DNA from: Usitatibacter palustris
GTDB lineage: Bacteria; Pseudomonadota; Gammaproteobacteria; Burkholderiales; Usitatibacteraceae
DNA: 64,000 nt
NCBI RefSeq assembly: GCF_013003985.1
Contig: NZ_CP053073.1
Coordinates: 62,001 to 126,000 of the forward strand
Direction: 5' to 3'
Under the pieces are notes generated by a model. That model did no database searches. It saw only the letters and a program-made list of their open reading frames with translations, and was not told where the DNA came from. Numbering within the stretch: the first letter of the stretch is position 1; every line of letters starts with the position of its first letter. The position numbers and the translations under genes are program-made. Positions 51,926 through 54,043 of the stretch are shown here, one piece after another.

Positions 51926-52822
51926 GTGCCGGCCTCGATCGAATTCAACGGTCTCACCCTCGTCTCGACCTTCCAGCCCATCTATAACGTGCGCGAGACC
52001 CGCGCCGAGGGCTACGAAGGCCTGGTTCGCGCGTCGCGCGCGGATGGCACGCCGGTCAACTCGGGCGATCTCTTCGACAGCCTCGACGAATCGGAACTGA
52101 TCTCGCTCGATCGCACCTGCCGCACGCTGCATCTTCGCAATTTCGCGGCCGTCGATCCGGGCGACCGCATGCTCTACCTCAATATGCATCCGGTTGCCGC
52201 CGTTGCCGACGCCACGCAAGCGAAGGAAGTGCGCTCGCGCATCGGATACTTCGGCCTCACGCCCGAGCGCGTGTGCATCGAGATTCTCGAAGGCTCGTGC
52301 GCCGATGAAGGCCTGCTCGTCGAAGCCGCGGACGCCTACCGTTCGATGGGTTTCAAGCTCGCGATGGATGACTTCGGCGTCGAGCGCTCCAATTTCGACC
52401 GCGTCGCCGCCATCGGCCCGGACCTCGTGAAGATCGATCGTTCGATCCTCGCCGACGCCGTGGGCAACGTGAAGGCGCGACGCATGCTGCCGGCCGTGGT
52501 CGGCCTCCTGCACGAAGCGGGCAGCAAGGTCGTGATCGAAGGCATCGAGGATGCGAGCGAAGCGCTGCTCGCCATCGAGTCGGGCGCCGACTATCTCCAG
52601 GGTTTCTACTTCGCGCCGCCCGGCGTGAAGCTGCATAACGATGCGCTGACCGACCGGATGCTCGCCGAGCTCACGCGCGTGCGCCGCCCGGTGATCGAAC
52701 TCGCCCCGGAATCGGTGAACGAGGCTTCGTCGCTGAGCGCCGTCGCACGGTTGTTGAAATCAGCGCGCTCGCTGTCGATCGCGGAGCGGTTCACGGTGCT
52801 CAAGAAGACCGGTTCGGACTGA
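51926..52822 (+). CDS. EAL-family protein (c-di-GMP phosphodiesterase, EGL variant)
   Basis: A 298-residue stand-alone EAL domain. The signature reads Y-E-G-L-V-R where EAL enzymes have E-A-L/V-L-R. The remaining metal and catalytic residues seem present: L-N-M-H, C-I-E-I-L-E, M-D-D-F-G, V-K-I-D-R-S, V-I-E-G-I-E-D and L-Q-G-F-Y-F-A. Hydrolysis of cyclic di-GMP is likely but not certain. A ribosome site (CAGGAG) precedes the ATG. It follows the hybrid kinase in the same direction. Confidence 0.88.
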   Translation: MPASIEFNGLTLVSTFQPIYNVRETRAEGYEGLVRASRADGTPVNSGDLFDSLDESELISLDRTCRTLHLRNFAAVDPGDRMLYLNMHPVAAVADATQAKEVRSRIGYFGLTPERVCIEILEGSCADEGLLVEAADAYRSMGFKLAMDDFGVERSNFDRVAAIGPDLVKIDRSILADAVGNVKARRMLPAVVGLLHEAGSKVVIEGIEDASEALLAIESGADYLQGFYFAPPGVKLHNDALTDRMLAELTRVRRPVIELAPESVNEASSLSAVARLLKSARSLSIAERFTVLKKTGSD

Positions 52823-52833
52823 CACCGCGAGAC

Positions 52834-52864
52834 GTATCCTCCAAAAGTCGAAAATGGAGGATAC
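52834..52864. promoter_or_regulatory. inverted repeat GTATCCTCCA-N11-TGGAGGATAC
   Basis: A perfect 10-bp inverted repeat lies twelve bases after the EAL gene stop. It could be a weak hairpin terminator or a further operator: its arm and spacer lengths are almost those of the two dyads that follow, though the sequence differs. Confidence 0.5.
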
Positions 52865-52872
52865 CGCGCGTC

Positions 52873-52947
52873 GTTATACTAGGTTGACTCTGGGCTAGTA
52901 TAACTGCGGGACTTTGTTATACTAGGCCATCTACAGGCTAGTATAAC
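52873..52947. promoter_or_regulatory. two copies of the dyad GTTATACTAG-N12-CTAGTATAAC before the nucleotidyltransferase gene
   Basis: Perfect arms lie at 52873-52882 / 52895-52904 and 52916-52925 / 52938-52947. Successive half-sites start 22, 21 and 22 bases apart, about two helical turns each, so all four face the same side of the DNA. The last arm ends one base before the downstream ATG. The half-sites contain TATACT or TATAAC and may overlap -10 boxes. This looks like a cooperative operator for autoregulation. Confidence 0.8.
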
Positions 52948-52948
52948 C

Positions 52949-54043
52949 ATGCTCAGCACACCCCTCGGCGCCGCCGCCCAGGCCGCCTACTCCGAACTCC
53001 TCGACGTGGTCCGCCACCTGGAGCTCTCGCGCTCCATCGAAACGCTGAGCGGGTCCTTCAACCGGAAGACCGTCCGCGGGATCGTGTACTGGTACTACCA
53101 GTTCACCGAGGTCGATACCGGAAAACTCACGCAATACTTCATCGGACCCGACAGCGACCCGCTGCGCGCGCTCGTCGAACGCGCGCGCGCCAAGGACGCA
53201 CGATCCATCACTCGCCTTGCGGCGGCCGCCATCGCCCACGGCTGCGCGGGCGCGACACCGACGCACTTCCGTGTCGTCCGGCGGCTGAACGAGGTGGGAT
53301 TCTTTCGCGCAGGCGGGCTCCTCATCGGAACCCATGCCTTCCTCGCGTGCGGGAACGCGCTCGGTGTGTCGTGGGGCGAGGCGGCGCGCACGCAGGACCT
53401 CGATTTCGCCCACGCGGGATCGAACATCGAGCTGGGTTTACCGCACTTGATGAAGGTGGACACCGCAAGCGCCATCGAGCGGCTCGAAGCGGGCTTCCTG
53501 CCGATACCGGGTTTCCGTCCCTGGGAAAAGACCGCGAGCTTCGTGAGCAAGACGGATAGATCCCTGCGCGTGGACTTCCTTGCGCCGATGGTCGGAGGCA
53601 AGGAAGCGCCGTACGAGCACGCCGAGCTTGGGGTGCGGCTCCAGCCGCTGAGGTTCCTCGAGTTCATCCTCGAGGACGTCGGCCAGGCGGTTGTACTGAG
53701 CGCAGTGGGAGCAACGTTGGTCAACGTTCCCGATCCCGCGCGCTACGCGCTGCACAAGATGCTCGTCTATGCGGATCGCCGGGCTCGCAATCCCACGAAG
53801 GCCGGGAAGGACCTCCTGCAGTCCGCGGCGCTCCTCGAGGCAACGTTTGCGGATCGCGAGGACGACTACAAGCGCCTCTGGAAGGACTTGCACGCGCGCG
53901 GCGCAGGATGGCGAGCGCGTGCGCGCAAGGGTTTCGCTGCCCTGAAGAAGCTGGCACCTGAACTGGACGCGCTGCCCATGATGGATTCGATCCAGCGCAA
54001 GTTCGGACCGACCCCGCGGAAAAAGCCTGCCGCGCGAGCGTGA
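52949..54043 (+). CDS. GSU2403-type nucleotidyltransferase-fold protein
   Basis: A 364-residue protein of the NTP_transf_8-like group. The central segment G-T-H-A-F-L-A-C-G-N, followed by R-T-Q-D-L-D-F-A, supplies the nucleotidyltransferase-type acidic pair; the C-terminal part is helical and basic, ending P-R-K-K-P-A-A-R-A. No activity is established for the family, but related folds occur in toxin-antitoxin and abortive-infection proteins. There is no usual ribosome site: the operator-like dyads reach to one base before the ATG, so translation may be leaderless or begin further in. Confidence 0.7.
   Translation: MLSTPLGAAAQAAYSELLDVVRHLELSRSIETLSGSFNRKTVRGIVYWYYQFTEVDTGKLTQYFIGPDSDPLRALVERARAKDARSITRLAAAAIAHGCAGATPTHFRVVRRLNEVGFFRAGGLLIGTHAFLACGNALGVSWGEAARTQDLDFAHAGSNIELGLPHLMKVDTASAIERLEAGFLPIPGFRPWEKTASFVSKTDRSLRVDFLAPMVGGKEAPYEHAELGVRLQPLRFLEFILEDVGQAVVLSAVGATLVNVPDPARYALHKMLVYADRRARNPTKAGKDLLQSAALLEATFADREDDYKRLWKDLHARGAGWRARARKGFAALKKLAPELDALPMMDSIQRKFGPTPRKKPAARA

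Follow-up and report, generated by a model that had tools for sequence, protein, structure and literature searches.

The window, a stretch of 64,000 nucleotides from the genome of Usitatibacter palustris, contains a nucleotidyltransferase gene that is directly preceded by four copies of the sequence GTTATACTAG. These start at positions 52873 (+), 52895 (-), 52916 (+) and 52938 (-), with the spacings of 22, 21 and 22 bases described in the original prediction, and together they constitute two 32-bp palindromes whose centres lie 43 bp apart and whose arms are perfectly complementary. The last half-site ends one base ahead of the start codon, likewise as described. Table 1 lists the features of the locus.

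Table 1. Positions of the nucleotidyltransferase gene and its proposed control elements in the window
Feature	Position	Strand	Basis or remark
Distal operator palindrome (putative)	52873..52904	.	GTTATACTAG-N12-CTAGTATAAC; with the proximal copy unique in the genome
Putative extended -10, TG-T-TATACT (TGTTATACT)	52915..52923	+	Read from the sequence; inside the proximal left arm
Proximal operator palindrome (putative)	52916..52947	.	GTTATACTAG-N12-CTAGTATAAC; followed by C52948 and ATG 52949
Nucleotidyltransferase gene, 364 aa	52949..54043	+	PF12281 NTP_transf_8 ("GSU2403") at residues 107-313, E 3.3e-41
N-terminal domain, residues 1-99, proposed operator-binding	52949..53245	+	AlphaFold fold; covariation with the operator

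The gene upstream (51926-52822) encodes a lone EAL-domain protein resembling c-di-GMP phosphodiesterases; it ends about 50 bases before the distal palindrome, and no functional link between the two was found. In the intervening DNA, at 52834-52864, lies a further perfect inverted repeat with 10-bp arms, GTATCCTCCA-N11-TGGAGGATAC, which is unique in the genome. It resembles the sequences (GTATCCTC/CATATCCTC) found in front of the family genes of one PF12281 subclade (L016, L018-L020), a subclade outside which both family genes detected in the U. palustris genome lie, and it may be a remnant operator.

Chance does not account for the half-sites in the window. With at most one mismatch, GTTATACTAG is matched four times in the window against 0.09 expected matches, a number reached by none of 100 shuffled sequences. 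The entire genome of 3.96 Mb holds four exact copies, all of them before this gene, and allowing one mismatch adds a single site at 2,090,018. The reversed pattern gave 66 matches genome-wide, a contrast that is exaggerated because CTAG is scarce in many bacteria. Further exact sites being absent, a regulon elsewhere in the genome was ruled out. Repeats dispersed without relation to the gene family, the finding that the original prediction had named as speaking against it, occurred neither in this genome nor in the 399 genomes of the order that were searched.

By the curated PF12281 profile the gene product is a clear member of its family (142 bits versus a cut-off of 26.3). Active-site residues are retained almost throughout 179 aligned members (G127 in 179, D150 in 176, D152 in 178, D/E209 in 178, K270 in 177 and D288 in 176), K284 and Q291 are each conserved in at least 98% of them, and the protein of the present locus possesses all motifs, i.e. 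G-[TS], DxD and the third acidic residue. From these conserved catalytic residues the enzyme looks catalytically competent. Residues 1-106 lie outside the PF12281 model and gave no Pfam match above the cut-off. The AlphaFold model of the full-length protein has a mean pLDDT of 92, and the N-terminal domain folds alike when modelled alone (pLDDT 80), with a predicted helix (8-26), three antiparallel strands (36-42, 45-53 and 60-67) and a second helix (70-81). In the PDB no structure matched the whole model at E 0.001, the best being the nucleotidyltransferase-like protein 5uvd from a fungus (E 6e-3); for the N-terminal domain there was neither a sequence match nor a significant fold match (best Foldseek E 0.39), and ecotin matches of this domain (E 0.001, below the cut-off) were judged to be chance similarity of β-strands. 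Throughout 100 related genomes the N-terminal domain is joined to the nucleotidyltransferase, with a single exception. This is a truncated family gene of about 125 codons (L249 1480-1872, genome G088) that encodes the N-terminal domain only and is accompanied by an operator-like palindrome; genes reading like a VapBC pair lie downstream of it. The product of this truncated gene could act as a repressor by itself, or it could be a mere relic.

The arrangement of the proximal palindrome and the start codon had been taken to mean that the gene has neither a leader nor a ribosome site. This is not supported, and the absence of a leader is unlikely. The putative extended -10 element predicts that the transcript starts near 52930 and that its leader measures about 20 nt, with a weak AGG at best. 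A consensus promoter scan detected no full sigma-70 site at this locus, where a good -35 element is absent. In 72 relatives, TTGACA-like matches are most frequent at 16-17 bp before the TATACT in the proximal operator's left arm.

Palindromes of this kind are found throughout much of the family. We collected 192 family loci and examined the 80 bases before the predicted start codons, counting as near-perfect those palindromes with no more than one mismatch among the 11 arm pairs. Such a palindrome precedes 134 of 179 family genes (75%) versus 36 of 805 other genes from the same loci (4.5%), and only about 2 of 179 reach this level after dinucleotide shuffling. Roughly one quarter of the members, some of the most distant among them, fall short of this strict test, so that the operator feature may not be universal in the family. 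The half-sites vary by clade and include GTTATACTA, GTTATACTC, GTTATACGCA, GTTATACAAC, GTTGCTAAACA, GTTACTATACA, GTATCCTC, TTACCCC, TTTACCGT and others. In the close subfamily the palindrome has a constant span of 32-33 bp and usually ends 1-10 bases ahead of the ATG. Where two palindromes stand in tandem, they usually share the half-site (CATATCCTC, CTTGTTACC, TGTTKGTAA, TRCCACACA, GTTATACAA, GTTATACTA and others, in a list that also includes chance second palindromes). The centres of tandem palindromes in relatives are 35-56 bp apart, and the proposed phasing of the half-sites on one face of the DNA therefore holds for the present locus and not as a rule of the family.

A search for the half-site before other GSU2403-family genes had been suggested as a check of the original prediction. 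The pattern GTTATACTA-N13-16-TAGTATAAC occurs at eight sites in five of the 399 genomes of the order, and all eight lie beside PF12281 genes; the reversed control pattern gave no match. The paralogue in the U. palustris genome (L006) has a different operator, GTTATACAAC, and its residues on the sheet face differ as well. Where other genomes carry two family genes, the operators in front of them differ in several cases as well, which fits a control restricted to the own gene. In a genome of the same genus (G005), an orphan palindrome of the GTATCCTC type with a length of 31 bp is located in an intergenic region (L230 ~1501-1531; G005:C246:2238-2268) with no adjoining PF12281 gene; it may be what a lost gene has left behind, or an element of another kind.

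A relation between the operator and the N-terminal domain became apparent when 100 close relatives were classed by their half-site, using the DNA only, and each protein column was scored for its excess of differences between classes over those within them, with the identity of the catalytic domain kept equal. The high-scoring columns of the sheet are S36, N38, K40 and V42 in the first strand, Q51 and T53 in the second and L60 and Q62 in the third, i.e. alternate strand residues. The mean score was 0.35 for this face of the sheet (p = 6e-7 versus the rest), -0.01 for its back and 0.015 for the remaining columns. High scores were also obtained outside the sheet (T256, Q149, V215 and others), as is expected of phylogenetic noise. 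On the predicted fold we propose that S36, N38, K40, V42, Q51, T53, L60 and Q62 (and F64) form a base-reading face. Residue 60 tracks bases 8-9 of the half-site, which are those following TATAC: the bases TC (TATACTC) go with Arg60 in 11 of 11 cases, TA (TATACTA) with Leu60 in 43 of 54, GC with Lys60 in 4 of 4, GT with Gln60 in 3 of 3 and TG with Thr or Ser60 in 6 of 6. A tree built from the catalytic domain only shows three origins of TC, all of them together with Arg60; the pairings of G at position 8 with Lys or Gln60 and of TG with Thr or Ser60 are also recurrent, with no contrary pair. Each of these tests of independent pairs is too small to reach significance alone, and the argument lies in the agreement of all of them. 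An arginine that reads the guanine opposite C would be chemically sensible.

We conclude that the palindromes are, with high probability, the operator of a self-repressing enzyme, whose N-terminal β-sheet domain would bind as a dimer over the promoter. That the protein very probably binds both palindromes to control its own gene agrees with the autoregulatory binding proposed originally, which is strongly supported by the comparison of sequences, namely by the operators across the family, the uniqueness of the sites in the genome and the covariation with the sheet. We assume that the three-stranded sheet of the solitary nucleotidyltransferase reads one half-site, so that one dimer would occupy each palindrome and two dimers both. 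The proximal palindrome contains the putative -10 element (TATACT) and abuts the start codon; a dimer bound here would exclude RNA polymerase, and the gene would be shut off once enough protein is present. Since the half-site is private to the locus and matched to the domain of its own protein, the protein would control its own gene only. Besides physical binding, the dimeric state and the activity of the enzyme, we infer repression rather than activation because the operator overlaps the putative promoter. A more far-reaching idea, which we regard as tentative and rather doubtful, is a widespread single-gene control system: a toxin-like enzyme modifying RNA or nucleotides would directly gate its own promoter through the fused β-sheet repressor according to its state of activity (whether substrate or nucleotide is bound). 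Operator and domain would diversify together under a readable code from residue to base, which would keep each locus private even where a genome holds paralogues.

It is usually a dedicated repressor that binds a palindrome ahead of a gene, and a separate regulator encoded elsewhere might therefore bind the present ones, with the nucleotidyltransferase being a mere target. We consider this improbable: the class of the operator covaries with the sheet face of the very gene behind it, no neighbouring gene recurs (the commonest is present at no more than 5 of 183 loci), and the genome lacks the other exact site that is often needed if a repressor controls its own gene elsewhere. The perfect complementarity of the arms and the position of the second palindrome against the ATG would suit RNA hairpins near the start codon that act in translation control or attenuation. 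However, tandem palindromes usually share their half-site, which is required if one protein binds all half-sites and is not required for RNA pairing; the span is fixed at 32-33 bp in the close subfamily; and the likely -10 element lies in the left arm, so that the transcript would hold the right arm only. Mismatches between the arms moreover show no preference for G-U pairs (10 G-T versus 9 A-C of 33). On the shared tandem half-sites and the absent G-U preference the hairpin explanation was rejected, and we regard it as very improbable.

The gene might also travel on a mobile element whose ends or target sites are the palindromes. PF12281 has a patchy distribution: 49 of 399 genomes sampled from the order carry it, as do 50 of 397 from the phylum, or about 12%. 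Plasmids often encode it (430 records), and the orphan GTATCCTC palindrome in G005 stands without a family gene, all of which would be in line with mobility. Against this, all GTTATACTA palindromes are located just upstream of the gene and none at its other end, and mobility leaves the covariation with the sheet face unexplained. An empty-site comparison with genomes of the same genus found the downstream flank not to be syntenic at the DNA level. We consider a mobile element scarcely credible as the reason for the palindromes, and self-repression by the fused domain remains our preferred reading.

A phage origin was rejected, there being no matches in 50,697 phage records and, at the sensitivity used, no confirmed relative on viral contigs. 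None of the papers in the literature searched names the PF12281/GSU2403 family, its role or its regulation. Several relatives (L130-L133, L138, L164, L167, L176, L194 and others) adjoin genes of polysaccharide biosynthesis (sugar transferase, CapD/WecB-like); these neighbours may reflect hypervariable islands and not a function. The PADLOC defence models matched neither the protein nor any of 74 aligned members. The description as 'toxin-like' in the original prediction thus finds no direct evidence, there being no recurrent partner gene, no PADLOC match and no significant AbiEii profile match, and we retain a toxin role as possible.

If our reading is correct, the PF12281 family gains a testable mechanism of control and its undescribed N-terminal domain a probable function. 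The natural set of matched operator and β-sheet sequences is one from which the DNA recognition code of a sheet-type binder could be derived. Whatever lifts the repression would in addition point to the substrate of the enzyme.

The arrangement resembles that of the type IV toxin-antitoxin systems AbiE and MenAT, in which the promoter is overlaid by paired inverted repeats that AbiEi or Rv2827c binds, conferring negative autoregulation; Rv2827c has four repeats, located between -1 and -131 relative to the start codon (PMC7319586). Inverted repeats over a predicted promoter, followed by a nucleotidyltransferase gene, are present here as well. Nucleotidyltransferases of type IV toxins have a DxD motif and a catalytic lysine (PMC11375011), and in this respect the protein of the present locus is like the AbiE/MenAT enzymes (DUF1814). 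In AbiE, however, the repressor is a separate protein recognising 23-bp repeats, whereas the proposed binding domain of the present locus is part of the enzyme itself, the half-sites comprise about 10 bp and a second gene is lacking. A profile-profile comparison with AbiEii/DUF1814 gave a probability of 2% (E 0.02) and covered the shared active-site motif only, and hmmscan gave no AbiEii match to the protein. Membership of the AbiEii/DUF1814 toxins was ruled out as the profile comparison was not significant, and a type IV two-gene operon with a cognate antitoxin was ruled out for want of a recurrent neighbour among the 183 loci.

The predicted succession of a three-stranded antiparallel sheet and a helix is reminiscent of the AP2/ERF domain, where one face of the sheet reads the bases, and of the arm-binding domain of integrases (Arm-DNA-bind_3, PF13356). 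PF13356 matched 3 of 44 members weakly (E 0.017 at best). Unlike in these domains, to which there is no significant match in sequence or fold, the sheet is fused to a nucleotidyltransferase and would presumably bind palindromes. The proposed union of enzyme and repressor in one protein has precedents in NadR, PutA and BirA, autoregulated 'trigger' enzymes that act both as enzymes and as transcriptional repressors. These proteins control pathway genes in response to known ligands; the nucleotidyltransferase described here differs from them in its fold and in an operator that appears to serve its own gene only.
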